A DNA stretch of 64,000 bases from Ulota crispa. Lineage: Eukaryota > Streptophyta > Bryopsida > Orthotrichales > Orthotrichaceae. Of this stretch, positions 4,880-58,442 are shown piece by piece. The notes beneath the pieces were generated by a model. That model had not been told where the DNA came from. It made no database searches and saw only the letters and a program-made list of their open reading frames with translations. The translations under genes and the position numbers were made by a program. The DNA lies in NCBI GenBank assembly GCA_963920765.1, contig OY987249.1, positions 1,862,501 to 1,926,500 on the forward strand, written 5' to 3'. Numbering within the stretch: the first letter of the stretch is position 1; the number at the start of each line of letters is the position of its first letter.

Positions 4880-6133
4880 AGGTAGGAGGTTCATATTCCG
4901 CTCAGGTTCTAAAACAGTTCATCTTTTCAAATGTACTCTTCTTGTACACGTTGTTTTTCATAATCTTAATTTTCTAAAGGTTCAAGTCCTTTTTTTTGTG
5001 AAAGTCATTGAAAACTGCCACTTTGGGAGGAATGAGTAGAAAAGTAGGAAATAAAGTTTGTTTTGTAGATCCAACCGTATGATCTTGCCTTAGATTGGAA
5101 GAGGTACTTGAGGGAAAAAAATTAGATCATTCTAAATAGAGAGGACAAAAATATTTACATTTGAAGTGAAAAAAAAGGTTTTTTTTATGCTACCCAAAAA
5201 ATTTCAAAAGCCTTTGACCACTCTTATATGAAAAAATTGCTCTACACAAAGTTGAGGTTTATTTTTTCCATATAGAAGACCAAGTTAGGTACGTGTGGGA
5301 GAATTTTCAAATCAATTGGAACTATACAATACATAGGAAAAAAATAGTAAGTAAAAAGAAATAGAGAATGAGTCAAATCACTAAATTATTAAGAATTTAA
5401 TTATTGAAATGAAAAATGCAAATACCAACGGTTATAATGTTGTAATAAACAATCTACTTCCTTAGGTTTAGTTTTTTTCCAAAATATTGAAAATTGCATA
5501 AAGTAAAGGACTTCAAAGTTTATTTTAGAGTAGAGAATCCATAACTACCCACAAACTAAAACATCTCATAACTTTCATCTCAACGATTGAAGTTGAATGA
5601 TTCAAAGCTTCTCACATATGAAAAAGTCTAAAGAACCAATTTCAGATTTTTTTTAATAGAAAATACAAATTTTAAAGAAGTTTTTGGGCTGCCCGGATTG
5701 CATTCCTCCCCCGGGTTGCAGAAATTCTTGCATAGCTTCTTTGTCAAATGTCAAAATGAAGAAAAAATTAGATGCCCAGGTAGGTCTTGGAACTCCCCAC
5801 CTTCAATAAAAGTTTCAAAAATTTACACAAAGTAGTTTAGCTATAGGTAATGCCTGAAATCCATTTGTCTCCCAAGGAGACAATTGGGCCTTTAGGGTTA
5901 ACTATGTACAAGCAGTCTACATTTGAGGAGGTAGACGGTTTTAGAGCCCTATATCACTTCAACTTTGAAATTTCACAACTAATTCCACAAAACTCCAAAA
6001 AATATGAAACAACTTGGGGTTAGATGCCAATTCCTTGTCTTTCAAGGAAATTTACTGAAAAAAATTCAAGAGGTTTCACCTCTCCAAAATTCAATTTCAG
6101 CTCTTAGATGGTCAATTTATGAGCCTCCTACCT
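4880..6133. mobile_element. TA-target MITE (AGGTAGGAGG family) carrying a nested insertion
   Basis: The ends AGGTAGGAGGTTCATA (left) and TGAGCCTCCTACCT (right, inverted) are each bordered by TA. The 1,254 bp span includes the 928-bp TTAA element at 4970-5897 plus one duplicated TTAA. Removing these leaves 322 bp, close to the 312-bp uninterrupted copy at 40,200-40,511. Sequences on both sides of the insertion (CAAATGTACTCTT and ACATTTGAGGAGGT) are shared with that copy. Confidence 0.85.
4970..5897. mobile_element. Non-autonomous TTAA element, 928 bp, nested
   Basis: It is flanked by TTAA at 4966-4969 and 5898-5901. The left end (TTTTCTAAAGGTTCAAGTCC) has drifted from the family consensus CCCCTAAAGGACCAAG; the right end is CCTTTAGGG. 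Internal blocks match the 6,372-7,320 element (for example AATGAGTAGAAA near the left end and GATGCCCA near the right). No ORF of interest. Confidence 0.8.
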
Positions 6134-6371
6134 TAGAGCTTCTTAAATGGGTTGCGTTCTCTGTGTTCAAAAATTGTACTTGTGCATGCACTGTTTTAGG
6201 AGTGACATGAGTCATTGTTGAGTGTGCTTATTGGTCATAAATGTGTTTAGATTTGTCTTTCAGTAAAATATAGACATATACGACAACCTTTGATCAAGAA
6301 TAGCTACCTATGCAACTTTTGCTTTGATAAATTGGAGATAATTCATAACAACTCAGTAAATTTCAATTTAA

Positions 6372-7320
6372 CCCCTAAAGGACCAAGCCCTATTTTCTTT
6401 GAAAATCACTGAAAATTGCCAGTTTTGGAAGAATGAGTAGAAAGTTAGGAAAAAAGGTTTTTTTGAAAATTTAACCGTAAGATCTTGCCCTAGACTATGG
6501 GAGGTACTTGTTGGAAAAAAATCAACTCATTCTACTTGTAGAGGAGTGAGATATGACCTTTGAAGTGAAAACAAAAGTTTTTTTCCCTGCTGCCCAAAAA
6601 TTTCAAAAGCCTTTGACAGCTCCTATATCAAAAAAATTGCTCTACGCAAAGCTGAGGTATATTTTTCCCATGTAGAAGACCAAGTTAGGTAAATGTGGGA
6701 GAATTTTCAAATGAAACGGAGGTGTAGATCATACTTTGTAAAATCTTGCAATGCTATAAGGTCATGAAATTTGCATATAGACTAGGCAAAATTGGAGGAT
6801 TTATGTAAAATTCAAAAACCCAAATTACTTTGATCCAAATGGTGAAAACCAAGGAATCTTAGTCTACTACAACTTGCAAAAAGAAAAGTCAAAAAACAAA
6901 TACACAAAGAGCTCAAAAAAGTAAAGCAACAAGTTTTACAAGGGGGAAAAGAAATGGAGGTTTGAGAGTTCCATACCTACCCGCTAACTAAAACTTCTCA
7001 TAACTTTCATCTCATCTATCAAAATTGAATGATTCAAAGATGTCCACATATATAAAAATCTAAGGAACTAATTTCAAATTTTTATTTTTAAAAATTACAA
7101 TTTTGAATTTTTTTTGGGCTGCCCACCCTCGCCCTTTTTCAGAAATTCATGTATAACTTCTTCAATAAATGTTGGAATGAAGAAAAAGTTAGATGCCCAT
7201 GTAGATCTTTGAATTGCCCACCTTCAACAAAAGTTTCAAAAAATTACAAAATGTAGATTAGCTATAGGTACATGCCCAAAATCCATTTGTCCCCCGAGGG
7301 GACAGTTGGTCCTTTAGGGG
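6372..7320. mobile_element. Non-autonomous TTAA element, 949 bp
   Basis: The ends are intact. CCCCTAAAGGACCAAGCCC at the left and GTTGGTCCTTTAGGGG at the right give a 15-bp perfect terminal inverted repeat (CCCCTAAAGGACCAA), bordered by TTAA at 6368-6371 and 7321-7324. TTAA target duplication with CCC-starting termini is the hallmark of piggyBac-type transposition. It encodes no transposase. Length and internal sequence match the copies at 4,970, 12,098, 39,124 and 56,487. Confidence 0.88.
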
Positions 7321-7324
7321 TTAA

Positions 7325-8319: not shown

Positions 8320-8417
8320 TAAATATAATGATTTTGAGGAAAGCAAGTCAAAATTTGAACTCTTAAAATGATATGTTTGTAATGCAAAGATCCTCGCATA
8401 AGTTTGAATGTGATTAA

Positions 8418-8886
8418 CCCTTAAAGGACCAAGCTACTATAATTCATACTATGTACGTAATTTTATAAATAGCATTTGCTGCCAACAAATTTTTTAAATT
8501 TGGAATCTTGACTACCTCACTACAACAACATTGATCTATATTCTAACTTCTTTATTGATCTCAAATGTAATAAAGGTTTGGGTGCACTCCAAATACAAGA
8601 AAAATACTCCATATTGTACTGCTCGCAAAGGGCTGCTCGATCGTTCTAACCCCTAATGGATGTTGCCTACCAAAAGTGTTAGTTGTATTCTTACAAGGTC
8701 CATTTATACTTGAAGAAATGGCTTTATGAAAAATGCTAAAATTCCTCAAAAAAGCCTAATTGATCGGTAGTATGTTTGTGAGTTGGCTTAAAATTTACAA
8801 CTCTGATGGGATTCATATACTACTCAAACAACCCATCTGTATACAACACATGATAGCGTACGCATTATAGCAACATCCTTTAGGGG
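8418..8886. mobile_element. Degenerate TTAA element
   Basis: The left end is TTAA-CCCTTAAAGGACCAAG and the right end is ATCCTTTAGGGG-TTTG, where the right TTAA has mutated. An internal TAACCCCTAATGG at 8647 could be a third, inner terminus, so the span may represent two overlapping remnants. Confidence 0.5.
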
Positions 8887-8989
8887 TTTGTGTAGTTTTG
8901 AAAATAGATTTTGAATGACTTGCAAAATACAATTAACTGAATGCACGTTTTCTTTGGATAGGTTTTTTTAGGAGTTGAGATGAATTCCA

Positions 8990-9009: not shown

Positions 9010-9634
9010 GTGTAAAACATGTTTTCTATTGGTTTGAGACCTGGTACTTATAGGTATACTATTGAGGGTAGTTACTTTGAAATCTTTAATTGCTTAACAA
9101 TAGACATGTCTCTATCTTCAAACACCAGATTTTGTGTTTTATAAAATCATAACTAGCATGACTTTTGGCTTAATCATAAAAGCTTGTCATTCATTACATC
9201 TGTATAAAAGAGATTTTTTATTACGCTATTGCATTCATTAAAAGTTAAGCAATTATGTGTAGTTTTAGATTACTAAACGAAGAGTACAAACAAAAATGTA
9301 ATGGAAAGTATACTGTAATCTGTAAACTAGAAGTGTAAGTTTTAAAAACTAGATACCTTTATTATAAATTAACCATGTTATGAAAGGTTTGTGCACAAAA
9401 TGGATGAGTAATGTCTAACCTATTATTGCAATGTGTGATGAATAGAAAAGGAGTTGTAAATGAAAACATCGGACTCATCATTTGCATCAAATATAGTTTA
9501 TTTGTGGATTAATATGAACAAACACAGTTCTTTCTTACCTTTTAAGGTGGAGCGTTTAAGTAAAAAATTCATCTTGAACAAAGAAGTCCGCTAGTGATGC
9601 TTTGGTCATCTTTCTTCTATCCACCTTGCATTAA

Positions 9635-9857
9635 CCCCTGAATGGCACAAAAGCCCTTTGCGACCGTATGTATGGCCGTATGTACACACGTATTTGAGCT
9701 GCTCTAAGGGCTTGCCAATTTTTTTTATGCACCCACCACATACAACTCTTCAACATATATGATTGTAACACTTAATTTCTAGTTGATTCAAATTTTTTAA
9801 TACTGGTTGCGACCGTATTTGGTACCATATCTCCAGACCCCAAGGACCCTTTAGGGG
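9635..9857. mobile_element. Short TTAA MITE, 223 bp
   Basis: The left end is TTAA-CCCCTGAATGGCAC. The right end is GGACCCTTTAGGGG-TTAG, with one target base changed. Two internal GCGACCGTAT blocks (near 9660 and 9808) lie toward the two ends. It is non-coding. Confidence 0.65.
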
Positions 9858-9861
9858 TTAG

Positions 9862-11999: not shown

Positions 12000-12097
12000 T
12001 ATAGTATTATCAAAGATTTGGAAACATCAAACATATACACCCTTCAATTTGTCAAGTTCAATGGATCTAGATGATTCCTAGAGAACAAGGCCATTAA

Positions 12098-13032
12098 CCC
12101 CTAAAGACCCAGATAGTGTTTTTTGGCAACATAGCAATTTTGGGCAGCTCACCACAAATGGATTTTTCATTTTTTTTCTTTGAAATTTTCACACATGATG
12201 TGTCTGAGGAGTAGCTTTAAGGCCCAACAAATTTCATAACTTTTGACTTCATGGTTCAAAAGTTATTGCATGATAAGTAGTTTTCTTTGTTCAGGGGGCA
12301 GCCTGGGCAGCTCAAAAAACTTCTTTAAAAAATACATTTTTTGAATTTCGTTTTTTGAAATTGGTTCTTTAGATTTATATATACTTGGAAAGCTTTTAAT
12401 CATTCAATGTTCATCAATGAAATGAAAGTTATGAGGAGATTCTCTTTGTGGGCAGTTTTGGATCCCTACTCTAAAAAAAACTTTTAAGTCCTATGTTTTA
12501 CTCAATTTTTAATATTTTGGAAAAAAAAACAAAGCCAAAGTATGTAGATTGTTTATTGCAACATTTTGACCATTGGGATTGGAATTTTTGTTTTTCATAA
12601 TTAAATTCTTAACAATTTAGTGTTTTGTATCATTCTCTACTTCTTTTTACTTACTATTTTTTTCCTATGTGTTATACATTTCCAAATGATTTGAGATTTT
12701 TCAAGTATGTACCTGACTTGCCTTGAAGAATGAATACAAAAAAGCACAACCATTTTGAAACTTTTTTCATACAAATATGACCTTGTGAAGTGCAGCTGCC
12801 CGGATTTTTGCATGGACAAAAAATGACTTTTTGTCAATTCAAACTCAATCACCTAACAATCCACATGGCAAAGATTTCTGAATTTTTTTCCACATCTTTA
12901 GATACTAATGTACTACAAGATCTTATGGTTAGATGTGTCCAAAAATAACTTTTATCTAAAATTTGATACTTGCACTATAAATGACAATTTTGGGACAGTT
13001 TTGATGAAAACATAGTCAAAAGCCTTTAGGGG
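12098..13032. mobile_element. Non-autonomous TTAA element, 935 bp
   Basis: TTAA-CCCCTAAAGACCC at the left and AGCCTTTAGGGG-TTAA at the right. The left half matches the arms of the fold-back element at 41,383 (TTTCACACATGATGTG, GAGTAGCTTTAAGG). The right half belongs to the other half-type shared by the ~930-bp class. Confidence 0.85.
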
Positions 13033-13059
13033 TTAATAGGATTAGTTATGACTTCTACC

Positions 13060-18600: not shown

Positions 18601-19870
18601 ATATATTTGCCCACTCCGTGCACGCACTCGAGATCCAAATCTCACCCTCATTTTTTCGACATTCCTTATCCTTGGCCACAATTTCAAGCAAGACGGGAAA
18701 AGCGAAGACCAGTTGGATATACCAGAATACACATCCCATTCACACCTCAACCAGCTCACCACCACGCTGCTCAACTGAGGCGAGCCCTTCAACAACCTCC
18801 ACTTCCTGCCCAAAGCCTCACGACCACCTGCTGTTGCTGGGAGCTCCATGAATCCCACGATTCATACAAAAAGGTTTTGGTCCTCTCTCACATTCGCAGA
18901 AGCAACACCGAAATTCGACTAACATTTACTACCAAGAATTTCATGCCACGTCGCGATCACGCTTGTTCAAGACACAGGTTTCCACCCATTCAACCAAGAC
19001 AGACAGAAACCGCACCACAACACACAGCTTGTCGACCGACTTGGAACCACAGAAGCTCTTCCCAAAGACTCTCCCGAGCCTCTCACTCCCGTGCCAAATT
19101 AAGTCACCGAGCATGCCGACGAGGTGGTGAAAAGCAATCCCGGTGCCTTTGCAGCTACCAAATTGCACTCAAAAAGCTCAACGTACCGAAACTCGCCCAC
19201 CCTTCCTCGTTCACAGAAACAACACACACATCCACGGACGTCACTCGGGTAACGCATGCCATTGTCGCGATCTTATTGTCCCAGAATTCCACATTCACGT
19301 GCCATTTCACACTTCCAAACCCTCAACCCTAGAATTAAAAACCACGGAAACCCTAATCCAGATGAATCAGGAACAACCATACGATCCCCTGAAGACATTC
19401 GAGACTCAAAACAGACCGCCAATACCACGACGGCGACACACGAGCTCAGGGTGGTAGTGTGGTTACCTCCTCGGCCGACACGGAGATCTCGTTGGCCTTC
19501 TCCTCCGCTTCCTGGCGGATGAACTGCACCATCTGCTGCACCTGCTTCCCCACCTCCATGTCGTTCATCTTGCCCGATCCCCGCACCAACCACCTCCGGC
19601 GACGTTCTCACCCCAAGTTCAAGTTCGCCCGCCAAAGCCTGGAGTGCAAACGCACGAATGTCTTGATCCAAAGCTTCGACGATCGCGCCTTGGCCGGATC
19701 GCGAGAATTGCGACGGGACGACGTGAGGATTTCTGGGGCGATCGAGCATCACTCTCGAGCATCTCTGCTTCCGCTCTACTGGGAGAGAAGCCGCGGTCGT
19801 AGGCGCCCGCGGTGACGGGTGCCGCTAGATGAGGGCATATTGAATCGGGCATCCTTCCTAGTACTTTTGA
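15675..19870 (-). repeat. Left arm of a ~4.2-kb inverted duplication
   Basis: Its reverse complement matches 30,539-34,680. The outer limit is CGTGTGCAGC at 15,675-15,684, matching GCTGCACACG ending at 34,680. The inner limit is near the CTAGTACTTTTGAA at about 19,859-19,872. From 18,287 to 19,815 paired coordinates sum to 50,409 without change, meaning no indel for about 1.5 kb. Further out the sum drifts (50,422 at exon 3, 50,428 at exon 5, about 50,355 at the outer end) and substitutions become frequent. Confidence 0.95.
16560..19568 (-). CDS. VHA-E: V-type proton ATPase subunit E, left copy
   Basis: Subunit E is a peripheral-stalk (stator) protein of the V1 sector that holds the catalytic head of the vacuolar/endomembrane proton pump. 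Exons on the minus strand are 19568-19467, 18114-18014, 17821-17662, 17491-17298 and 16860-16761, all GT-AG, giving 219 codons. The protein begins MNDMEVGKQVQQMVQFIRQE and contains the N-terminal coiled coil (EFNIEKL.., RKEKQVEVRRKIEYS) and the C-terminal core (GGVVLATKDGRIVLENTLDA, then RLEVVFKQQLPE). The family is about 225-240 residues. The start Met is the family start. The last exon is uncertain: an acceptor at 16,593 would add ILVSSHCVRS and stop at 16,560, but the usual IR(K/R)xLFG end is not visible. Compared with the right copy only three synonymous changes are seen, all in exon 2. Intron 1 is 1,352 bp. Long open frames on the opposite strand are shadows. Confidence 0.9.
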
Positions 19871-20254: not shown

Positions 20255-21548
20255 TTAACCCCTGAGCGTTCCAATGCCCCAAATCTGGCCTCTTTAATTT
20301 TTATTTGGGGTGCTGGGGGCGCAAATGGGCCTGTCTTGGCTGGGCAAGGGTATCATGAGTACAAGCCGTGCTTCCTTTATGTCATGTCATGGAGTTGTTG
20401 CTTTTACTGGTCGTATGCTCTGCCAGGTAGGGATTGATGGTTTGTAAAAGTGGCTTTCTAGGCGGTTTCAAGGAAAGCATGAATCTAGCGCAATCGTTTG
20501 CAGCTAGTGCAAGACCGTTGGTGACTGTCCAGTTGGAGCGGACGTAGAAGGGGTCCCGAGCTCCGCTTGAACTCTCACGCAGTTCGTTTCTAGTTCAGAG
20601 GATTGGTGTTGAGGGATTCAAGGTAGGTCATTACGAATCTCCCTCCACATTGCTAGAGTTCCTTGGAGGGCACATTTTGCATTGGCTTCGTGGCGGCGCT
20701 TGCTGTTCAGAAAATTTGTTGAACGCCTGTAGTGCATTACGTCCTTGCAAGAGCCATCATCGCTCAGAGTGGCAATTGCGCATTTACTTTTTGCAAATGG
20801 ATTTGGAGGACTTTGGCAGCGCCTCTAAGAGAGCAAGTTCGTATTGTGGAGGGTGGGGTGCCATGGCCGGCGGTTCAAGCAATGAACGCGCACAACAGGT
20901 TCTGGAAGTCGTGAGTGCCAATTCTCGAGCTTCGCCGGCGGAGCTTCTCAAAATTGAGGCGTTGCTAGAGGTGTGGGCTATTTCCAGGCACCATGCTACA
21001 CCAAACCAGGTACATCGACTGAAGCTTTGTTTGCAAGAGGGTTTTTTGCTTTGTTGGTGGAACCAAAGAAAAACCACTATTGGCTTGCTGTGCTGGACGA
21101 AAGTTCCTGGAGATATTTGTTTTGACGTCAGTGTTTTAGGATTTTGGGTGTGATGGAACAAAGCTCTGAGGGGCACTTAGATCAAGTGAACCACTTCTTG
21201 CATTTGAAGTGGTGGCCGACATTGAATTTTGCTATTTCGAGCTACAGCAATGCAAGGCCAAGATTCCAAAGGGGAGGACAAGGGTCCCTCCCTTAGAGGC
21301 AATCCACACTCCTCATTTGCAAGAATGTCCAGAACCCATACCCAATCCCAGCACTCGTTCCACATTCCGGTCTCTCTGGCTCCAGGATTCACATGCGGAG
21401 GGATGAGAACTCAAGGGGTAGTCGAATTCCCCTCAGCTGTGGGAATGAGTGGATTCTAGTTATGGAGATTCAGACCATGGGGGGAGGGGTGTCTATGCCT
21501 GGGCTGGTGAGCAGAGATGTTGTTTGATGTAGAGGCGTCTCGCTAGAT

Positions 21549-22343
21549 ATGAACTTGAATGTGAATGTTCATTGCTTCAATTTGAATGAGGTGCTGCTTG
21601 TGGATGGTGAGCACACCAAATTGGCCAACGTTGTAGTCGTGGAGGAAGCAAGCACCTTATTGCCGTTGAATTTAGATAACAGAACCGGCCGTTTGCGTGG
21701 ACGTGGAGGACAAAATCCGCAAGGGCATGAGCAAAGTCATGGTCGCCTCCAACTAGAAGCTCCCTTTGACCTCAACACTTTTGCACCTGCTAACAACAAC
21801 GCGGAGCATGTTGAGGATTCCAACGGTTGTGCTGGGCATCAGAGAGGGGTGGGCCACGGCTGAGGACGCACTCAACTACCATTGCCACAATCAAATGTAA
21901 TGGGAGGGCCAATACAAGGATTGGCGCAACCGCAGGGAAGGCCTTGAAGAACTGGCCGTGGACGCGGATGCACTCAGCTGCAATTGCCAAAATCAGATGT
22001 AACGGGAGGGCCAGTTCAAGGATTGGCGCGATTGCGGGGAAGGCCTCGAGGAACTGGCCGTGGACGCGGATTGTCACGAGGTCGAGGTCACATGGCAAGT
22101 GAGACCGCAGGGTCACGGTTGAGTTAAGTAGCAATTGAACTAGACATGGAAACTCCTCTTGGATGGACTGCGCCTGCCATCAAGCCACTCCCAAGGTCTC
22201 CACATGGTTTGAAGTATTTGCCTAGGCGTCAAAAACATACTACAATAATCGCTGCCCCAATTGCTAAAGGTCCCGCAAATTGTACGCATCAGACCATGAG
22301 CTTCACATCAAATACTTTGCCGACCTCAGCAACTAGCCAATAA
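21549..22343 (+). pseudogene. Decayed Gly/Arg-rich (GRGRG, AT-hook-like) repeat ORF
   Basis: One reading frame stays protein-like from 21,549 to 22,343 apart from stops at 21,861 (TGA), about 21,942 (TGA) and about 22,126 (TAA). Two 34-residue repeats encode xxQLPLPQSNVMGGPIQGLA-type sequence followed by QGRP/RGRP and TGRGRG, so the motif resembles AT hooks or RGG boxes of DNA- or RNA-binding proteins. In the second repeat the codon at the first repeat's TGA is CGA (Arg), so that stop is a C-to-T decay. It lies inside the 8-kb TTAA element, upstream of and on the same strand as the transposase. It may be an N-terminal part of the same gene or an accessory protein. Function not known. Confidence 0.45.
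21849..22070. repeat. 102-bp tandem repeat, two copies plus a partial third
   Basis: The block TCAAATGTAA...GGCCGTGGACGCGGA recurs with a period of 102 bp (TCAAATGT at 21,891, TCAGATGT at 21,993). The end of a third copy begins after 22,050. The period is a multiple of three and preserves the reading frame of the decayed ORF. Confidence 0.8.
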
Positions 22344-23436
22344 CGTCAACGCAGGCGCCTTAGTGAACAGAGGTTAGCTTCCAAGTATAGCTGTAATTGG
22401 AACTTCTTAGTTTTAGTTTCTGTATCAGTCCATGTTTACGTAATTTCAAAATCAACATATCCCTCTGCATTCTACGGTTTCTCATTTGCAATTGAATGGA
22501 CAAGCATATGTGTATTTGTTGGATGTGTGGTGTCTTTTCTTGTATGGATTTTTTTTTTGGAAACTGTTGCATGCAAGTGTCATCCGCTAGTGGGTGTTTT
22601 CATGTCACGTTTGAGTCTGTATGGGTGGACCGAGGTTGTCCAAAATGAGAGGGTTTGGTTTTTTAGGCTCGTTGTACTATCTGTATCCGATCACAGAGTG
22701 ACCGAATACAGTAAGAAACTGTGGATGCTACTGTTTGGTCGTTGCATTCATGTTTGTTTACCTGCTGTCTTACTTGGTGCTACACATGAAAGTAATCAGA
22801 CTCATTTCCCCCAAATCCTTTATGCGGTCTCAAGTACTTTGCGTTTCTTCTCAAAAATAAGTATGGGTCATTGTCATGTCAAGATGGATGCAGAGAATAA
22901 ATAAAGCGGTAGTATATTGCTTATCAAGTATAGTCTGATATGAGGTATCCCAGTACTCACTTCGTCTAGACTCCACCAAATTTTCTTTATACATTGATGC
23001 CACAATGGGCGGGGTGAAGCCGCAGTCCAGTGTATCCATAGAGGGGTGACATGGCCTTTTAGTTTGGAGCCTGTTTCTCTTCGTGCCTACGCTATGGTTT
23101 ACCGATGCAGCATGTACGTCTATTCACCTTTGATTCGGCAATCTGTGAATGTCTGATTCAAGGCTACACAAAACTTTTGAGTCCAAGTTCTCATGTTACG
23201 TGATCTAGCCTATATGTGCCCCTACGTGGCCATGTATGAGTCGTGCATGAAAGGGGATTGGTTCAATGCTAGAGTGAAAGGAGGGTAGTTATTGGTCAAA
23301 ATTAGCAGGTCGTAATAGCAGAAATTGGCTTGCACATTCCACGTTCTTTCTTTCCAAGAGAAAATGTGTGAATGCATGCTGGGACATGGTCTTGTACTAG
23401 GTCATCAGAGTCCTTCTCTTACCATGTCAGGTCTCT

Positions 23437-23770
23437 GTCAGAATTATAAACTAGGCAACATCAACAGGATGTGCTGCAGCAGCAGTCCTACAAAACCTAC
23501 TGAATTCTGATCGACGGTTGTGGCATGACTGGGTCCGTCATTGTGCACTGGGCCTAATTTCAATTAGTTCAGCCATCCAGTGAATGTCGTCAAAATTGTA
23601 AACTAGGCAGCATCAGTAGGGAGCTCGCAGCAGTGATGTGCTGCAGCAGCCATCCCTTGGTACGTGCTGAAGTTTGATCGATGGTCCTGGCATGCTTGGG
23701 TCCACGACTGTGTACTGGGTTTAATTTTAGTTGGTTCAGCCATTCATTGAATTTGATTCAATAGTACAAA
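23437..23770. repeat. ~152-bp tandem duplication
   Basis: GTCAGAATTATAAACTAGGC at 23,437 recurs as GTCAAAATTGTAAACTAGGC at 23,589. Similarity continues through GGCATG..TGGGTCC and GTGCACTGGG/GTGTACTGGG. The second copy carries a small insertion next to GATGTGCTGCAGCAGC. Non-coding. Confidence 0.8.
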
Positions 23771-23887
23771 ACTGTGTTGAAGTGAACATAAACTACATGA
23801 TGTTTTCATGCTTTTAACGCAAATTTTTGTGTTAGAAGCATGAAAACATCATGTAATTTATGTTCATTTCAACACAGTTTTCTACTA
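23763..23887. repeat. Near-perfect hairpin, ~125 bp
   Basis: The arms AAAACTGTGTTGAAGTGAAC and CAACACAGTTTT (with the complementary ATGATGTTTTCATGC centre blocks) are inverted around 23,820, with stems of roughly 50 bp. It is probably a small MITE inside the 8-kb element. No clear target duplication. Confidence 0.8.
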
Positions 23888-24221
23888 GTGATTGCAAGGA
23901 ACGTGTCAGGTAGATCCGATCAAGTCCTCCCCTTCCCCATTTTGCTTGCTTCGTTGCTTGCAATCTGCATATGTATCACAAGAGTGGAAGAGTTCGATTT
24001 ATGTATAGAGGCGTCTAGATTGTATGGGCTCTGTTAGTGTGCGCTTCATCTCAGTTTCCGATGACTGAAATGAATACAAACTTGGGGGCTTTCTTCAACC
24101 ATGAAGTGGTGTATAAACAATTCCAAGCCTGTCTCACAAAAAAGTAATTCATAGTAAAGAGAGCTGCCATGATTGTCTACAAGGTAGTTATTTGTATCCT
24201 TCACCATGTAACATACCCTGA

Positions 24222-26745
24222 GTGTACTCTAGTACTCAGCAGTGCTTTTGTTGGACCGCTTGCAGGACCAAGTACAATTGTCCAGGAGGGGACACGCCAC
24301 CGACAAGGGCAGTGCAAGAGGCGTTTGCTACGACGGAACAAGTGAATCGTTGGCTCTATAACCAAGGCAATCAGACCAACGACGAGCACTACCCTCCTAT
24401 CAATGGTTCCTTTGGGGCCATGTCTAGTCAAGCACTACCAACTCTTCTGTGGGTACCATTGCCAGTGTTTGGATACAATCCAAGAGATTGGGACGGTTTG
24501 CTCAACTTTGTTGGCGAACCGCAACAACAATGGCAAGAACATGGCGTTCAATTTTTTTTCATTCAATTCAAAGGAAGCATTGGTGGGAGGAAGGTGCACA
24601 ACTTTGACTGTCGCTGTGTTGAAGTGGGAACAAATATAGGATTGCATCGCTGTCTTCCAGGTCCTTCTTCTCTAGGTGTGCCTAACTCGGAGGAAGGTGA
24701 AGTTCCGGAGTTTGCCACACAAGGACTTGACGACAATTTTGTTCCTCCACTGTATCAAGACATTCAAGAGACCATTGCTCGCTCGCTGTATTGGCGTGAA
24801 GAAGTCCAAAGCACACCTAATCAAACAACATCACCGGCAGGGCTGATGTCCAGTGATCCAGCGTGTCCATCATTGAACGCTAGATCACTCCAGCTAGTCC
24901 CAATTCAAACTCCTCATTCACTAAATGGTCACTCTCCTTTTTGATTGCTTGTCAAGGCACCTCCTAGCCCTGCCAGTCTCGGCGCACATATGAGTTTGGA
25001 CTCAGAATGGGAGGCCAATTGGCGGGACTATGCGGGAAACGCTTCTTTGTTCAACTGTAGCTACAACTCCGGCTCGAATGATTGCGAGGACCCTATTGAC
25101 CTCCGTCACGAGGTGGGAGTATATGAAGACATTGATCAGCTATAAGACATGGATTTCCAGGCTCAATACAACGATTGTTTTTGGCACAGCACGGAGTCGA
25201 CATTGCTTGGAGATAGAGATCTATTTCTAGGTGCAACTGCTGGACCAAAGGATAGGGTGTCTTGCACCAGGCGTCCGTCGGCTGTGGAGTTCTTTGATTT
25301 GTTTCTCAATGATGCTCTACTCACAAGTATCGTAGAACAGACAGATCTTTATGCGTTGCAGCAGGGGACCGGTCGATTGTAGGCAACGAATAGACGACCA
25401 CATTAGATACCTATTCATCCCTTAGAGACCTGTATTTTTTTGGGTGTCTGTATCTTGATGGGCATCAAATTGTTGCCCACCATCAGGGATTACTAGAAAA
25501 GTGATGGCTTTCTTCAATGCTCCCTCATTCCACGTGTCTTCACACGCAACTGTTTTGAGTCACTGCTTAGATGTATTCATCTAGTAGATAATCACAGCAT
25601 AGTCAGTGACAAGGAATCCCCTGAGTTTGATAAACTAGCTAAGATGAGGTGGTTGATTGTGGATTATGTGTCTAAGAGTCAGACTTTTTATAATCCAGAG
25701 AAATTCATCACTGTTGATGAAATTATGGTAGCATACAGGGGGCATTACTCTAGCTTCAGGCAATACATGCCAGCAAAACCCTCTAAATATGGGTTTAAAT
25801 TTTTGCTAGTGTGTGTAACCCATCCTGCTACATATATAACCTTTAGCCTTATGTGGGGGCATCTGACATCCTGGATGTAGGGCAAGAAGAGAGAGTTGTC
25901 TGTGACTTGACAGTGGGACTAGATGATGCTAGCCACACTATAGTGTGTGACAACTTCTTCTCCTCCCCAAAGCTCTTTGAGGAGTTACTGCGACAAGACA
26001 CATGGGCCACCGGCACAGCGAGGGAGAATTGAATTGGTTTACTGGCATCTATTCTTGGCATGAGGAAGGGCCAACACCCACGAGGGACATTGTTGTGGCG
26101 GATGCATGCTCAGCATTGGATGGCCCTTACATGCTGGTATGATTCCAAACCCGTATACATTTTATCTACATCTGCAAATCTAGTATCCATCACTGTACGA
26201 TCTCTTCGTTGGATTGGAGGGGTGCGGGAGTCCATTCCATCTACTCCAAAATAGCTGGAGTACCAATTGAACATAGGCGTGGACATCGTCAACTAGATGT
26301 GCACAGATTATACCGTTTAGTTCCATTTGCATAAATGGTGGCACAAACACCTGTTTTTGTAATGGACTGTTGGTTGAACAACGCATGGGTAATACTAAAG
26401 CACAATTGGGTAACTCGTGGAGAGGTGATTTATCGGAAGAGGTTGCAGTTCCACATGGAGGTTGTCAAGGCTTTGATTGCGCCGTGGTTGGATTTGCCAT
26501 CAACATGCAAGGTCAATTGCCTTCGTCACTTGGGCGCTATCCACTACAGTAGCCAGAGACCAAATCTTTGGAGGCAGTGCATAGTTTGCAAAAACAAGAC
26601 TAGGTTCAGTTGCAAGACATGTGGAGGGGCTCATACGTGTGTTGATAGGTCTTTTGTGAAGGTTCACACACAACAGAAGTGGGCAATGCGGGTAATCCGT
26701 CTTACGCAAACTTGGCACTTGGGAGGTATGTTCAGTAAGTGGTAG
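24222..26745 (+). pseudogene. piggyBac-type transposase, decayed
   Basis: This is a DDE/D transposase of the piggyBac superfamily (DDE_Tnp_1_7 fold), which would cut and paste at TTAA. One frame runs 24,222-25,880 with in-frame stops near 24,942, 25,143, 25,380, 25,404 and 25,491. Typical blocks are SAVEFFDLFLNDALL, MGIKLLPTIRDY, then FITVDEIMVAYRG with the first catalytic Asp at 25,716. A one-base shift in a G run near 25,855 moves to the next frame, with TIVCDNFFSS (second Asp, 25,949), a stop at 26,030 and WYDSKPVYILST (third Asp, 26,141). Stops at about 26,252 and 26,294 and another frameshift near 26,300-26,335 precede LNNAWVILKHN and a C-terminal Cys-rich ribbon (QCIVCKNKTRFSCKTC, about 26,578-26,667). 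The N-terminal ~300 residues before 25,149 are not recognised. The gene cannot make a functional protein as read. Confidence 0.88.
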
Positions 26746-28254
26746 TAGTCAAATTTGTGAGAGGAATTTTAGCATACCATGAGAAAGCCCTATGAAGTTC
26801 TAATCTTTATTTGGAAGTGCTGCTTTCCTAGTGGTTGTATTTTCTTGAGTTATAGATTAGTGGATTAGACCTGTAATTCTAGCACTTCAGACGTTGTGAG
26901 GTAGTACAAAACAAATGACAACTTCCCATGAGTATAGAATTTTCAATCAATGGTGACCATATTTACTATGTGACCCTTACCTAATCCTAAACCTGCATCG
27001 CAAATACGTTAGCGTGGAAGAGCCGAAGAACCTTTCCACCCTAAATCGTAACAAAGGCAGAGGAGGGTACCGTCACAAGACAAGAGTGCAACAAATTTGG
27101 CCAAGAGGGATGAGGCTTATTCATTCCAATTTGAAGAAGGATTACCACTGCAGCACGGCCAGCACAAGACGCCTAGAGGAGTTTCTTGTGCATTTTGCCA
27201 TTGAAAGGTAGAAGTTGCAAGAGAATTGTCTCGAGCGGGTGCAACTAGCGGGGTAGGCAAGTGCTCGGAACTGCATGAGCAGGCGCAGGGCTTGTCGGAA
27301 TCAACGACGCAGGGGAGAGCTCTGAGAAAAAAGGGCAGCGACAACAGACGGAACAGAGGAGGTTTGATGGAGTACAAGAAGGTTGTAGCTCTTGAATTTT
27401 TTCCTTTTTTTTTGTTAGGTCTCTTAGACAAATGCTTGAGTTTATTCACTGCCTTAGGGGAGCGAATTGTGCTTGGGTTGTTGCTTCTTATCTTGTAGGA
27501 CTTGGTTGGTCCTCATTGAAGAAGCACCACAAGAAATTTTACAAGGACTCTTTTTTCCGAATCTATCTGTATGCGGGTATTTTGCGTGTGAACCCTAAAC
27601 CCTAATTTGTGCGGCAAATATCAAAATTCCAAACTAAAGCACGGCAATTTGTAAAGTGAAATGTGTATTTGAATAATCATCGTATTGCAAATCGGAATCC
27701 ACCTTGAAATGAACTGATCACAACTTCGGAAGCCTCGGCCGAAAAGGAATTGTCCATGTTGCGGGCTAGAGTTTAGCTGGCTCGGCGGTTTGGACATTGG
27801 ACGCGGGAGTTCCTGCATGGCGGAGCGTCCACCGCCTGCCCAAAGAGGCTTTGCCTTTGTGTTAGTCTGAGCCGTACCTGGCTCCCGGTACTTGATTCTG
27901 AGCACTCACACTTTGTGGGCATGTCTGATCCATTGAAGTTGGTCAAAAATCTTTGAAAAATGGCAGGCAAGGAATCAACCCATTGCCAGACCGTGCTAGA
28001 AAAAATCAAACCTTACTTTTATCAGGAACCCCCTCAAACAAAAGAAAAAAGAAACAAACATGCCCAAAATTGCACAGGAAATAAAAATTCAACGGTGCTT
28101 TGATTGCTATAAAATAGCAGATGGTACGGTCAAGCAACACAAAATTTGAGGAGGGGATCCGGAGTTAAGTTAACTTGAGATTTCAACGATCTATTCAACC
28201 AGATTAGATTTTTGACCCTACACCATGCTTTTCAGAGCCTTAGGGTCTACTGGC
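26746..28254. other. 3' non-coding part of the 8-kb element
   Basis: No conserved protein is recognised. A short open frame at 27,226-27,498 is not protein-like. Two joined telomere-type heptamers (AACCCTAAACCCTAA, 27,591-27,605) are present. Confidence 0.4.
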
Positions 28255-28295
28255 TCGGACCAAGAGCAGTCATGAGCTGGGCGCTCAGGAGTTAA

Positions 28296-39119: not shown

Positions 39120-39123
39120 TTAA

Positions 39124-40052
39124 CCCCTAAAGGACCATTGTTCCTACGGGGGACAAATGGGATTTTGGGCATGTACCTATGACTAAACTACTTTGCGTGA
39201 TTTTTTGAAACTTTTATTGAAGATGGGGAATTCAAAGATCTGAATGGGCATCTAATTTTTCCTTCATTCCAACTATTATTGAAGAAGTTATACATGAATT
39301 TCTGAAAACATGCGAGATCGGGCAGCCAAAAACTTTTTTTAAAATAATTTTTTTTCAAAATAAAAATCTGAAATTGGTTCTTTAGATTTATATATATGTG
39401 GGGAGCTTTGAATCATTCAATTTGGATTTATGAGTGATAAGTTTTAGTTTGCGGGCAAGTACAAGACTCCCATAATTCCTTTCTTTTGCCTTTGGTACTT
39501 TACTTTTTTGTGCTCTTTGCGAATTTGTTTTTTGAATTCTTTTTTTTCCAAGTTGTAGTATACTAAGATTCCTTGTTTTTCACCATTTGGATCAACGTGA
39601 TTCATATTTCTCAATTTTACATAAATCCTCCAATTTTGCCTAGTGTATTTGCAAATTTCATGGCCTTACAACATTGCAAGATTTTACAACGTATGATTCA
39701 CACCTCCAATTCAATTGAAAATTCTCCCACACTTACCTAACTCGGTCTTCTACATGGAAAAATTAAACCTCAACTTTGCGTAGAGCAATTTTTTTGATTT
39801 AGAGGCAATCAAAGGCTTCTGAAATTTTTGGGCAGTAGGGAAAAAACTTTTTTTTCACTTCAAATGTCAATATCTCACTCCTCTACATCTAGAATGAGCT
39901 GATTTTTTTCCCACAAGTACCTCCCATAGTCTAGGGCAACATCTTATGGTTGGATTTCCAAAAATAATTGTTTTTCCTACCTTTCTACTCATTCCCCTAA
40001 AAGTGGCAGTTTTCAGTGATTTTCACAAAAAAAGGGCTTGATCCTTTAGGGG
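39124..40052. mobile_element. Non-autonomous TTAA element, 929 bp
   Basis: TTAA-CCCCTAAAGGACCATTG at the left and TTGATCCTTTAGGGG-TTAA at the right. It is colinear with 56,487-57,402 and opposite in orientation to 6,372-7,320. Internal landmarks include GGACAAATGGGATTTTGGGC and CATTCCCCTAAAAGTGGCAG. Confidence 0.88.
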
Positions 40053-40199
40053 TTAATTGGCCTATGGTTTTCCTTTTTGGTTACGAGATAGTTTTGTTGT
40101 GGTACAAAACTTCCCTGTATGGTTGTAATTGGGCACTTTCATGGAGCAAGACTTCCCTTTTCTGCAGTGAAACCAAGCTCCTCTTTTACTGTGGCTATA

Positions 40200-41059: not shown

Positions 41060-41382
41060 TAGTGTCTCCATTCCTTTTGGGACACTTGCACCGCACCTCC
41101 CTCTCACCCCATTTGTGATGGCTACAATGGATTTGAGTTGTTGCATGACCTTAAGTATGGTCTCAAAAAACTTGCACAATGATATGAATGAACATTATAG
41201 TGTCTCCCTACAAAGTGTGGACACTAAGAGTGCAAGTCTTCCCAATAAAGTATTGGTGATGTGTCACTTTTTGTTTGTAGTGAAGCTACTCTAACAAAGA
41301 AGGTGAACTCATTGTTGAGGATCAAGATTTATCTTTCAACTCCACCTTTTTGTCCCTTTGCATTCAATATGGAGGACAATAA

Positions 41383-42114
41383 CCCCTAAAAGCCCATTTG
41401 TCCCTTGGGGGGACAAAATGGATTTTGGGCAACTCATTACAAGTAGAATTTTCATTTATTTACTTTGAAATTTTCACACATGATGTGCCCAAGGAGTAGC
41501 TTTAAGGTCCAACAATTTTCATAATTTCTAACTACATGGTTCAAAAGTTATTGCATGACATGTTGTTTCTTAAAAACTCCAGGCAACCTGGGCAAGCTCA
41601 AGGAACTTCTTTAAAAATGACATTTTTTTTAAAATTTGGTTTTTTAGATTTATGTGAACGTGAGAAGCTTTGAATATTCAGTTTTGATTCATGAAATGAA
41701 AGTTATGAGAAGTTTTAGTTTGTGGGTAGGGTATGGAGTCTCTCAAAACCATACCTAGCCACTAACTAAAACTTCTTGTAACTTTCATCTCATTAATTGA
41801 AAGCAAATGATTCAAAGCTTCCCATGTGCATATAAGTTTAAAGAACCAATTTCAAAAAAAGAAACTAAAAAGAATGTCATTTTTAAAGAAGTTTTTTGAG
41901 TTGCCCAAGCTGTCCGGAGTTCAAAAACAACAATATATCATGCAATGACTTTTGAACCATGTAGTCAAAAGTTATGAGAATTATTAGACCTTAAAGCTAC
42001 TCTTTGGGCACATCATGTGTGAAACTTCCGAAGAAAAAGAATGAAACATCCACTTGTAGTGAGTCGTCCAAAATTGTTGTGTTGCCAAAAAAAAAGTGCT
42101 TGGGCCTTTAGGGG
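41383..42114. mobile_element. Fold-back TTAA element, 732 bp
   Basis: The left end is ATAA-CCCCTAAAAGCCCATTTG and the right end is GGGCCTTTAGGGG-TTAA. Unlike the ~930-bp class, the whole element is an inverted repeat with arms of about 350 bp meeting near 41,745. For example CACACATGATGTGCCCAA on the left is answered by GGGCACATCATGTGTG on the right. Confidence 0.85.
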
Positions 42115-42118
42115 TTAA

Positions 42119-42481
42119 CCCTCAAACAACAATATGGTCATTGTAACTACCCCATAACACTAGCATTATAGTGGTGTGGCAAGTGCCCATTCATTATAAT
42201 ATTATTTTCAAAAGTTCAAAAAGTCAACAAAGCTTTGTTGCCCTCATGAAAATTGTATGAAAGGCAACATGAGACCTAACACTATGTTTGCTAATCTTCT
42301 CACAATTTTGGTCACCTAAAAATATAAGAGCATTCAATGAGGTAGTTTTTTACCTTCCATGAAAATCCATGTCTTTATGATCATTTTTTTAAAAACTAAA
42401 TGAAAAACAGCTTTTTCCCATCCTACGAAGTAAATTTTTGTTATCCATCACACAAAAAATGCCCACCTCAACGTTTATTGG
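42119..42481. mobile_element. TTAA element, 363 bp (356-bp class)
   Basis: It begins CCCTCAAACAACAATATGG directly after TTAA 42,115-42,118, which it shares with the preceding element. It ends CCTCAACGTTTATTGG-TTAG. It is colinear with the inverted 13,617-13,972 copy, including CTCATGAAAATT and the CTCAACGTTTA end. Confidence 0.75.
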
Positions 42482-48204: not shown

Positions 48205-48331
48205 TAAATCTAATACAAAATCTTGCAAATGGATCATTCTCCAAAACAAAAACAAAATTGTTCTTGAGATCAAAGGACTACATTTGACAATCATGTGTAT
48301 TATTTGAGAAAAAATGGGCTTGATCCTTTAA

Positions 48332-48870
48332 CCCCTAAATGCCCAAGGGGGTAAGGACAAAACATAGATGCGCTATAAAATTATACTTTTGTAACTTTGA
48401 TGAAGTTTGCTTCAAAAGAGAAAACAAGAATCATGATGTTTAGTAATTATCCATATGGTCAAACATTCAAAAAAGGTTTCGGACTCTTCTTTAATGTATT
48501 TAGAAGCATTTACCATTTAATATTCTCCAAAATTACAAATTTTATTCATAGAATATAAAATTTGGTATGATTGGTTAAAAACAAACACTATATTCTAGAA
48601 CTAAAAAATGCAATATTTTTGAAGGAGAGAACATCATTAGTTTCCCAAAATAGTAAGTTTTATAACACTAACAAATATTAAAATATTTGTCTTTGAAAAT
48701 TTATCCTTGGTGGAGTTTAACTTGGATTGACATGATTCTAATATGGTTGGAAAGGACTTACTTTCCTATATTATTTTTGTTTTTGTTTTTTCAGCAATTT
48801 TGTTTTTTCATCTCAGGCAGCTCACTAAAAAGGGCAGCGATCCAAAAATGGTTGATTGGGCATTTAGGGG
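48332..48870. mobile_element. TTAA element, 539 bp (CCCCTAAATGCCC type)
   Basis: A perfect 15-bp inverted end CCCCTAAATGCCCAA lies at both sides, with TTAA at 48,328-48,331 and 48,871-48,874. It is colinear with 57,912-58,438. The left flank GGGCTTGATCCTTTA resembles the right end of a ~930-bp element and may be a remnant. Confidence 0.88.
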
Positions 48871-48874
48871 TTAA

Positions 48875-51852: not shown

Positions 51853-51856
51853 TCAA

Positions 51857-52060
51857 CCCCTAAGCGCCCAAGCCATTCTCACTAAAATTAGGCTTTTCAG
51901 AGACCTACTGCAACTTTGATGCATCATATCTCAGTCAATTGGATGATCCACAAAAGTGACCATTGAAAATAGTGGCACATCTACTTAGAAAATGGCTTGC
52001 AAATTTTGGGAATGGGAGATTATGACATTTGATCAAACAACTTGTGATGGCAAAATCTCA
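51857..52060. mobile_element. Orphan TTAA-type terminus
   Basis: TCAA-CCCCTAAGCGCCCAAGCC. The terminus is the closest in the window to the right end of the 8-kb piggyBac-like element (CTCCTGAGCGCCCAG). No right partner was found, so the end coordinate is arbitrary. Confidence 0.45.
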
Positions 52061-52447
52061 TTTTTTGACTAGTAGTTACTATTTATTAATTTTTACAAAA
52101 TTCTATGAATCCTCTCAATTTTTGTGAGCAACAAGATTAGATGTGAATGCACATACTTGCAAATTATTGAAGATTTTACTTCTTTGTAGGTTAAGCTTTA
52201 GGGCTTCAATTTGCTATTGCACAAAAAACAATGACCAACACAATTGGTGAGGGTTGTTGTGACAAGGGTTTAGAACATGCTTGAACCCTTGCTTGTGAAT
52301 TTCTTGCTATCCTAAAGCACATGCAAGGAAGCTTGCAATTAGTATTGACTAGTTGTAGCTTGTAAGACATTGCTTGCCACCATGTCCCATATGGTGTTTC
52401 ACCCAATAGAGGCTCTTGAGGCACTTGTACAATGAGGTACAACAAGT

Positions 52448-54466: not shown

Positions 54467-54652
54467 TGGCTTGCCTCGCCACTACTCCACTTGCATGGAC
54501 CAAGGTCAAAAGATTAGATCCAATACCCCAAACATACTTGTGGAATCATGTCAGGACCAGTTTGGTTCTCTGGGATGTTCAAGGGTTAAACTAAAGTTTT
54601 ACTTGACATTGGACAATGCAACTTGCCTACAAGAGAGTTATGCCACATTTAA

Positions 54653-55534
54653 CCCCTAAAGGACCAAAATCCCCTTAGGAGACTTTCGGGATTTTGGGTA
54701 GGCTCGTGTGACCTCAATTTTTGACATGATTTTTTGAAACTTTTTGATGGGTGTGTAGGAATGTATAAGGTTTGTGGGATGCAAAAAATCATGTGATTAT
54801 GTCACACTGATCACAAGTTATGGGTTTTTTTTTACCAAAAGCAATTTGAGGGTAGCTTGGGCAAGGGAAAATATATTGACTTTGGAGGGGGAAGCAAAGA
54901 GAGGCTGCCACATGTTGCTCTAGTGGTCCCCATTAATTTGTCATTGCCCCCTTTCATTTCCAATTTGGAGGTTAGATTGGGTTTTGGGAGCTTTTTAATT
55001 TTAGATATTTTGAATTTTCTAATTTTTTTTTTTTTTACATTTGAAGTACATGTTTATCTTCAAACACACCATTTGGGTTCTCCATATCTAAAAACATGTG
55101 GTGGGAAACTTCACTCAAAAATGTCATAGTGCATTTGCAAAACTTGTCATATAGTGGCATTGCAATATTTTTTAGGATGTGTTTTGTGTCTTTGATTGCC
55201 TTGAAAATTGGTGTACAAAGGTCTAACTTGATTACCTATAAGAAAAAACTACATCTTCAAGGTTTGTAGTGCAAAAGAAATCAGCAAATGTCAATCCAAG
55301 CCATCTGAAATTTTTGGGCACAATGGGAAAAAAAAAGTCCCTTCAAATGCTCATAACTTTCAATTGATACTGTCAAATGTCACAAATTTTTTATCACTTC
55401 TTCTTCTACAAGTGCATTACAAGATCCTATGATTATATTTCAAAGAAAAACATTTTGTTGGAATTTTTGATGAACACATCAATAGGGCAGTTTTGAGTGG
55501 TTTTTGGCAGAAAGTAGCCTTGGTATTTTGGGGA
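54653..55534. mobile_element. TTAA element, ~880 bp, degenerate right end
   Basis: TTAA-CCCCTAAAGGACCAAAATC is intact at the left. The right end GCCTTGGTATTTTGGGGA-TTAA is degenerate. The left half resembles 39,124 (GATTTTTTGAAACTTTT); a T-run of 14 sits inside. Confidence 0.65.
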
Positions 55535-55538
55535 TTAA

Positions 55539-56482: not shown

Positions 56483-56486
56483 TTAA

Positions 56487-57402
56487 CCCCTAAAGGATTG
56501 TTGTCCCTTTGGGGGATAGGTGGGAGTTTGAGCATGTACTTTTGGATAAGTTACTTTGTGTGATTTTTTTAAATTTTTGCGGAAGGTGGGGAATTCAAAA
56601 ACCTATGTGGGCATCTAAATTTTTCTTCATTCCGACATTTGATGAAGAAGTTATGCATGAATTTATGCAAATTTGGGGAGGACTGCCCGTTTGGGCAACC
56701 CAAAAACTTCTTTTAAAAGAAAACTTTGAAGTTGGTTTTTTAGATTTTATTATACATGAGAAGCTTTGAATCATTCAATTTCAATCAATGAGATTAAAGT
56801 TGTGAGGAGTTTTTGTTTGCGAACAATTATGGATTCTCTACTCTAAAATAAACTTTGAAGTCTTTTATTTTACTCAATTTTCATTATTTTGGAAAAAAAA
56901 AAGTAAAACAAAGGAAGTAAATTGTTTATCACAACATTTTGACCATTAGGATTTGCAATTTTCATTTTAATAATAAAATCCTTAACAATTTAGTGTTTTG
57001 ACTCATTCTCTACTTCTTTTTACTTACTGATTTTTCCCATGTGTTGTGTAGTTCCAATTGATTTGAAAATTCTCCCACACTTACCTAACTTGATCTCCTA
57101 CATGGGAAAAATAAAGCGCAAAGTTGTCTAGAGCAATTATTTTCATGTAAGAATGGTCAAAGGCTTCTAAAATTTTGGAACAACATGAAAAAAAACTTTA
57201 ATTTTCACTTTAGATGTAAATATCTCACTCATGTCTGTATGGAATGACCTGATTTTTTTTCCACAAGTACCTAATCCAGTCTAGGGCAAGATCCTATAGT
57301 TGAATTTCCCAAATTTTCAAAAAAAATTACCTTCTTACTAACCCCCCAAAAGCGGCAGTTTTAAGTGTTTTTCACTGAAAAAATGGCTCAATCCTTTAGG
57401 GG
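56487..57402. mobile_element. Non-autonomous TTAA element, 916 bp
   Basis: TTAA-CCCCTAAAGGATTGTTGTCC at the left and AATCCTTTAGGGG-TTGA at the right (one target base changed). It is colinear with 39,124-40,052. Confidence 0.85.
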
Positions 57403-57406
57403 TTGA

Positions 57407-57907: not shown

Positions 57908-57911
57908 TTAA

Positions 57912-58438
57912 CCCCTAAACGCCCAATGGGATAAGGGCAAAACATAGAATGTATTACAAAATAATACTTATGTACTTTTGATGAAGTTTGCTTCAAAAGA
58001 GAAAATAAGGATCATGATATTTACTAATTATTCATATAGTCAGACATTTAGAAAAAGTTTTGGGTCCTTATTTAATGAATTTAGAAGCATTTACCATTTA
58101 ATATTCACCAAAATTACAAATATTATGTATAGATTTTAAATTTTGGTATGATTGGTTAAAAACAAACATCCTATTGTGAACTTCAAAAATGCAATCTTTT
58201 CAAATGAGAGAACATAATTAGTTTCCCAAAATAGTAAATTTTACAACACTAGCAAATATTGAAGTGTTTGTCTATGAAAAATTCTCCTTGATGGAGTTAA
58301 CTTGGATTGATTTGATTAAAGTTGGGTTGAAAAGTGCACTTGATTTTCTATTTCAAAAAAAAGTTTTTTTTTGGGGTCTTGGGCAGCCCGCAAAAAATGG
58401 GGTAGCGACCAAAAAATAGACAATTGAGCGCTTAGGGG
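57912..58438. mobile_element. TTAA element, 527 bp (CCCCTAAACGCCC type)
   Basis: TTAA-CCCCTAAACGCCCAATGG at the left and CAATTGAGCGCTTAGGGG-TTAA at the right. It is colinear with 48,332-48,870 (AAGGGCAAAACATAGA, GATGAAGTTTGCTTCAAAAG). Confidence 0.88.
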
Positions 58439-58442
58439 TTAA

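Follow-up and report, generated by a model that had tools for sequence, protein, structure and literature searches.

A probable piggyBac-derived swarm of TTAA-flanked miniature elements in a land-plant genome

We examined a 64,000-nucleotide stretch of DNA (the window; bases 1,862,501-1,926,500 of contig C8 in a 274.8-Mb genome of 157 contigs) in which an 8-kb piggyBac-like transposon lies among many short elements flanked by TTAA, of the kind called miniature inverted-repeat transposable elements (MITEs). Further counts were made in a 264-kb stretch, consisting of the window and the 200 kb downstream of it, and across the genome. Taken together, the data make it very probable that the short elements are a piggyBac-derived TTAA MITE swarm in a land plant, with the ~930-bp families coming from an ~8-kb element resembling one on contig C7 (the C7 element), to which several of the following window features are compared.

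20259..28291, plus strand: decayed piggyBac-like element, 8,033 bp, with ends CCCCTGAGCGTTCC / CTCCTGAGCGCCCAGC and TTAA at 20255-20258 and 28292-28295
25458..26684, plus strand: piggyBac transposase pseudogene (DDE_Tnp_1_7) with stops and frameshifts, placed by PF13843 match and DNA alignment
4970..5905, minus strand: family-A MITE with decayed ends, placed by alignment to family A and comparison with the C7 element
6368..7324, minus strand: family-A MITE, 949 bp plus TTAA on both sides, with one diverged element-free site; both ends match the C7 element
39120..40056, plus strand: family-A MITE, 929 bp plus TTAA on both sides; matches the C7 element over 53 bp (left) and 368 bp (right)
56483..57406, plus strand: family-A MITE, 916 bp, right target TTGA on the plus strand, compared with the C7 element
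12094..13036, plus strand: TTAA MITE, 935 bp, matching the C7 element by its right end only
54649..55538, plus strand: MITE, ~882 bp, right motif decayed; the right ~530 bp matches the C7 element
41379..42118, plus strand: MITE, 732 bp, matching the C7 ends over 52 bp at 90% (left) and 33 bp at 91% (right); left target ATAA
13612..13976, unstranded: TTAA MITE, 357 bp, with a different interior, from the bounded-end scan
48328..48874, unstranded: family-B MITE, 539 bp plus TTAA, with CCCCTAAATGCCC ends
57908..58442, unstranded: family-B MITE, 527 bp plus TTAA, with ends CCCCTAAACGCCC / CCCCTAAGCGCTC; its joined flanks span four other loci
9631..9861, unstranded: short MITE, ~223 bp, with ends CCCCTGAATGGC / CCCCTAAAGGGTCC; right target TTAG
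8414..8645, unstranded: short element, ~230 bp, matching a ~235-bp element in locus L036 and abutting the next
8646..8890, unstranded: short element, ~240 bp, from the end-motif scan and comparison with the L036 region
51853..52432, unstranded: partial member of a 729-bp family with intermediate ends, CCCCTAAGCGCCC

The 8-kb segment had been described, in an earlier sequence-only reading, as bounded by CCCCTGAGCG/CTCCTGAGCG beside TTAA and as holding a recognisable transposase pseudogene, and both descriptions held. Positions 25,497-25,877 match PF13843 (E 1.7e-17), and the full extent of the pseudogene, 25,458-26,684, rests on a 1,244-bp alignment (64.5% DNA identity) with the transposase of a further copy, locus L034, whose right end (CCCCTAAGCACCCAGCCCA) resembles by eye that of the window element. 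Recognisable pieces surround the three catalytic aspartate motifs and the C-terminal cysteine-rich stretch; the motifs were picked by eye, with the catalytic positions taken to be those of Trichoplusia ni (T. ni) piggyBac. A Pfam search of 26335-26742 gave no match. The segment is most probably a dead copy of one piggyBac clade.

The element sits in the 10.7-kb spacer between two inverted arms (15675-19869 and 30540-34680) that are 97% identical over 3.18 kb and 91% over 0.97 kb. The arms have a GC content of 53% and an observed/expected CpG ratio of ~0.93 (elsewhere in the window, 36-38% and 0.41-0.57), and no target duplication was seen at their outer borders.

Ends of one type are strongly enriched around this element. 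The motif TTAA+CCCCTAAA (TTAACCCCTAAA), with up to two mismatches, matches the window 41 times against 8.28 expected, a count that none of 100 shuffles reached. It is present at 15 of the 18 positions at which TTAA-type elements had been proposed to start, and is absent from 4,970, 29,057 and 29,807. The first of these three is a decayed end, TTAA-TTTTCTAAAGG, whose body aligns to family A; the other two have in common a different start after TTAA, ACA..AGGCTTGT.AC.ATGG, and may represent another TTAA family; the sequence near them aligns mutually and to 42,162-42,362. The family-B end TTAACCCCTAAACGCCC, with up to three mismatches, has 18 window matches against 0.14 expected, and occurs 445 times across the genome (control, 0). 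With at most one mismatch per end motif, the 264-kb stretch holds 39 left-type and 25 right-type ends, compared with 2 and 0 in the reversed sequence, and the proposed pairing of ends is borne out by 17 elements of 224-949 bp that have exact TTAA and an end motif on both sides (two of them being one inverted duplicate). The TTAA flanks extend genome-wide: CCCCTAAAGGACC has 9,597 exact occurrences, against 3 for the reversed pattern, and 8,154 of these (85%; reversed control, 0) directly follow TTAA.

Together with seven hand-picked elements, some with decayed ends, the bounded elements form a set of 24 that covers 5.5% of the 264 kb, 8.4% with relatives, and 15.3% of the window alone, the last value leaning high because all seven additions fall in the window. 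Best matches between copies (at least 400 bp, inverted duplicate excluded) are ~75-84% identical. The terminus at 51,857, which had been called intermediate between the two end types, belongs to a separate 729-bp family, with 76% identity over 596 bp to a bounded member at 89,604-90,340 of the 264-kb stretch; the family's ends (CCCCTAAGCACCC / CCCCTGAACGGCCC) do lie between the types, but the target at 51,857 itself is TCAA rather than TTAA.

At 37 end motifs in the 264 kb, the four positions before CCCC (-4 to -1) read T in 31, T in 32, A in 34 and A in 34 cases, and positions -5 to -8 are mixed. To find sites free of the element, the flanks of each bounded element were joined with one TTAA and searched, with mismatched joins and random 900-bp cuts as controls. 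Four of the 17 joined queries gave 14 spanning alignments to paralogous sites (71-81% identity), compared with one spanning match in 82 mismatched joins and none in 50 random cuts. A search of the whole genome with seven of the 17 had one positive, the family-B element at 57,908-58,442, whose joined flanks align across four loci at 71-75%, as judged from the alignment positions. In total, five of the 17 bounded elements have element-free sites, all diverged, and none of the 14 alignments contains a second target copy. By analogy with the piggyBac superfamily, excision would be precise and would restore TTAA. For the 8-kb window element, the genome yielded no empty site, its joined flanks matching only their own two flanks.

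The genome search for transposases that the sequence-only reading had proposed returned many piggyBac transposases; in the loci whose sequence was read, seven outside the window and part of an eighth (L042), none is intact. PF13843 has at least 120 matches over the cut-off, many near full length, and none in any of 14 control genomes; the search scored 116 of 528 first-look candidates, four loci giving two rows each. Among the 120 rows listed, 10 have no in-frame stop, and most cover part of the profile. Locus L029 holds a nearly full, stop-free frame (profile 2-340) in which asparagine replaces the third catalytic aspartate, and this frame matches the solved transposases of piggyBac (6x67, E 4.1e-20) and piggyBat (9c0f, E 5.8e-17). 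Locus L030 (profile 30-349) keeps all three aspartates and has stops upstream and before the cysteine-rich end. The three aspartates are readable in piggyBac contexts in L030, L032 and L035; their positions are taken to be those of T. ni piggyBac, the alignment to the Protein Data Bank (PDB) structures spanning the first two. Membership of DDE_Tnp_1_7 was confirmed for L029, L030, L033, L035 and L042. Six other aligned proteins are 32-61% identical to the first, and these identities and the DNA matches, rather than a tree, suggest at least four transposase clades in the genome.

At L042 (C1:1180250-1182500), two open transposase frames with the three catalytic motifs lie ~270 bp apart, as if separated by an intron, and the C-terminus appears frameshifted. 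Several transposases also occur as oppositely oriented pairs, 15-109 kb apart, whose scores are equal or almost so (C7:18203169/18223004, C2:36765124/36779670 and C10:676128/785346).

Five of the seven transposase loci outside the window are bounded, by eye, by CCC-type ends at TTAA on both sides, with one of the ten end starts being TCC and the others CCC-type:

L033: 5.0 kb, CCC-type ends at TTAA on both sides
L032: 5.6 kb, CCC-type ends on both sides, right target TTGA
L029: 6.6 kb, CCC-type ends at TTAA on both sides
L031 with L037: 7.1 kb, TTAA on both sides, right end TCC
L035 with L036 (the C7 element): 8.0 kb, CCC-type ends at TTAA on both sides

A nearest-end search by repeat score alone missed several of these ends, which were recovered by considering all TTAA+CCC sites with longer flanks; the left end nearest the L034 transposase was rejected as probably belonging to a nested ~390-bp MITE. 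With T. ni piggyBac (6x67) and piggyBat (9c0f), the proteins have in common a DDE_Tnp_1_7 domain with DDD motifs and a cysteine-rich C-terminus, and with the superfamily at large the elements have in common the TTAA target and short CCC-type ends. They differ from superfamily examples in their land-plant host and in their length of 5-8 kb; in one study, complete bee elements measure 2.23-3.52 kb and T. ni piggyBac 2,472 bp (PMC10140906).

The C7 element (C7:11,814,408-11,822,432) starts with CCCCTAAAAGCCCACTTGTCCCTTTGGGGACAAAG and ends, on the other strand, with CCCCTAAAGGCCCAAGCCCATTTTTTCTGA. Family-A MITEs have two unlike ends, and over the terminal 50-60 bp the ends of the C7 element are 81-90% identical to them. 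Under permissive scoring, eight of 11 MITEs match both of its ends in order and orientation; five of these match at least 173 bp of its left and at least 367 bp of its right side, and the three shorter matches are at 39,120 (53 bp left), 86,399 (150 + 218 bp) and 41,379 (52 + 33 bp). The clearest case is a MITE on contig C1 (L039; C1:568,092-568,984; 893 bp including its two targets, of which the right reads TTGA), which aligns over 257 bp to the left end (65%) and over 591 bp to the right end (74%), leaving 45 bp in the middle, so that the two ends of the C7 element cover 95% of it, as expected of an internal deletion. In a second run, 10 of the 24 MITEs matched the C7 element, and none matched L029, L031, L032 or L033, or the window element beyond the end motif; reversed MITEs matched no element, and three short MITEs matched only a probably nested MITE near L034.

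The right tail of the C7 element recurs across the genome, with 1,751 first-look candidates. Of these, 40 were scored, and 38 of the 39 non-self matches reach the terminal TTAA; 37 of the 39 start at query 1,493 (12 matches) or 1,555-1,561 (25 matches), ~655 and ~590 bp from the end. One locus, L041, whose transposase is unread, carries the tail to 1,038 bp, ~370-435 bp past these MITE breakpoints, and the tail is therefore not merely a MITE broken inside one locus. For the left flank, the 40 scored of 2,802 candidates comprised, besides self, only a repeat at about query 520-900, so no left-end count can be drawn from it. An initial treatment of the MITE-like right end of L035 as a separate MITE was dropped, there being no good partner in the tail and a left end having been found upstream. 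Just after the C7 transposase lies a CATA microsatellite of ~600 bp (L035 ~5530-6130).

Could the C7 'parent' be an accident, two broken MITEs that happen to flank a transposase? Such ends occur about once per 4 kb, other MITEs lie in the C7 region and one complete locus was read, all of which leave room for coincidence. Set against this, the left and right pieces stand in the correct order and orientation with TTAA intact outside them and together make up nearly all of L039, the L041 tail continues beyond the MITE breakpoints, and every left-end-like match between the transposase and the right terminus has three differences (L035 6,527-6,528). We consider an accidental origin improbable.

Several observations nevertheless weigh against deriving the swarm from piggyBac through a C7-like parent. 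A transposase together with both family-A ends is known from one locus read, and such ends are closely packed (64 in 264 kb), so the flanking ends at C7 could be unrelated. Two of the 11 MITEs match the right end of the C7 element only, the chief match of the L002/L003 MITE is to a ~925-bp MITE that lies nested inside it, and past the terminal ~50 bp the MITEs of the window area are only 58-65% identical to its ends under permissive scoring. No end pair was found for L034 (right end only) or L030 (no end seen), exact TTAA stands in only one of the 14 element-free alignments (the others having substitutions or a gap), and no parent was found for family B, the 729-bp family or the 0.2-0.4 kb elements, although they have the ends and TTAA in common.

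Kolobok and Sola3 are likewise TTAA-targeting superfamilies, and the MITEs could belong to one of them with the piggyBac copies as bystanders. TTAA by itself does not single out piggyBac, and the window's own piggyBac element resembles the MITEs in the end motif only; yet family-A MITEs match both ends of a PF13843-bearing element, over up to 257 + 591 bp in L039, and the TTAA+CCC end motif is common to the transposase-bearing elements. A search with PF20700, which we take from recall to cover Kolobok, was uninformative, with no match here or in any of the 14 control genomes, and Sola3 was not searched for. On balance we find this explanation very unlikely.

We give slightly less credence still to direct descent of the window's MITEs from the 8-kb window element. 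The ends are related and elements with intermediate ends exist, in keeping with the claim that the swarm has the window element's type of ends, but that likeness stops at the end motif: 0 of 24 MITEs match the window element further in, whereas 10 of 24 match the C7 element. For family A this descent is largely refuted, and the window element is a cousin rather than a parent, at least of that family. Least credible of all is a TA- or TWA-targeting superfamily with a TTAA-like preference (Tc1/mariner Stowaway or PIF/Harbinger Tourist type). TTAA before CCCC can be parsed as TA followed by a repeat that begins with A, and the empty sites fit both readings; but conservation is about equal across the four positions of TTAA, and the transposase to which the MITEs are linked is that of piggyBac.

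The TTAA target, CCC-type ends, genome-wide transposases and the sequence link between MITEs and a transposase-bearing element agree in supporting the piggyBac interpretation put forward in the sequence-only reading. We propose that a land-plant genome, probably nonseed, was colonised long ago by several piggyBac clades. Their transposase would bind CCCC-type ends, excise at TTAA and reinsert at TTAA, a chemistry carried over from the superfamily, and the enzyme of full elements would move, by cut-and-paste, deletion derivatives in which both ends survive. The ~930-bp family-A MITEs would have arisen by internal deletion of an ~8-kb C7-like element, to judge from one parent locus, and then multiplied to thousands of copies, presumably moved by the transposase of the C7 clade. 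As far as the alignments go, a deletion origin holds for family A only; for family B and the 0.2-0.4 kb kinds a piggyBac origin would be suggested by the ends and TTAA. The MITE families appear to be old, the copies being ~75-84% identical and none of the transposases read being intact, and the MITEs are likely inactive now because the copies have diverged and the transposases are broken.

A cellulose synthase gene at window positions 932-2,892 (PF03552, E 4e-148 and 5.2e-126), presumably of CslD type from its appearance, supports the proposed plant host. PF19086 has 14 matches in the genome, 12 of them in open frames of 336-511 amino acids and none in the 14 control genomes, and nine of the 14 fall in a terpene synthase-like cluster at C6:11241661-11712246. 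These would fit microbial-type terpene synthases and hint at a nonseed host, but no more than hint, because the PF19086 family also occurs outside plants. Microbial-type terpene synthases are described as occurring widely among nonseed plants but not in seed plants (PMC13137197).

PiggyBac in plants is already known; this case is notable for its land-plant host and copy number, and what is new is the parentage of the MITEs. In the portions of the sources available, a C-fern repeat table gives piggyBac 1,230 copies and 122 kb (PMC6890710), angiosperm MITE superfamily lists (PMC10004981) and plant class-II superfamily lists (PMC10794571) name it, and PMC10140906 also names it in plants. As far as these excerpts extend, such lists and tables name or count piggyBac and do not describe its ends, empty sites or any parent element. 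A review from 2022 on the transposable elements of land plants sets out six terminal-inverted-repeat (TIR) superfamilies, and the word piggyBac is absent from its text (PMC9033089); a word count likewise gave no mention in the accessible text of two liverwort papers (PMC9985172, PMC13182070). PMC10619864 was discarded as a source, its two matches being the word 'piggybacking'. In line with the suggestion that piggyBac is seldom described as a major MITE source in land plants, our searches of the open literature turned up no description of it as the origin of abundant MITEs in any nonseed plant, subscription papers and bioRxiv lying mostly outside their reach. Animal piggyBac-related MITE families are likewise tied to piggyBac-like autonomous elements. 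In that animal system, families resemble one another more in their interiors than at their ends; in the present genome, what the elements have in common is the ends and a few hundred adjoining base pairs.

The result names a parent type for a TTAA repeat swarm, so that repeat libraries of nonseed plants could be corrected, and shows a superfamily used as a genetic tool, and known mainly from animals, to be present in a land plant in many copies. A broader possibility, to which we give somewhat less than even credence, is that nonseed land plants have long harboured piggyBac as one of their major DNA-transposon superfamilies, represented in one genome by at least four transposase clades, and that repeated internal deletions made it a main source of MITEs in these plants. 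If true, common plant transposon classifications miss a whole superfamily for nonseed lineages. It also raises the question of whether plant piggyBac was acquired by descent or by horizontal transfer.

Two further observations concern duplicated sequence. A 729-bp MITE near the window is duplicated in inverted orientation, its copies 34 kb apart; together with the oppositely oriented transposase pairs, this suggests that such duplications may be frequent in the genome. Both ~100-bp flanks of the MITE at 86399-87316 of the 264-kb stretch recur at 100% identity at C2:23798957-23800074 with about the same spacing (~910 bp), so a stretch is common to contigs C8 and C2.

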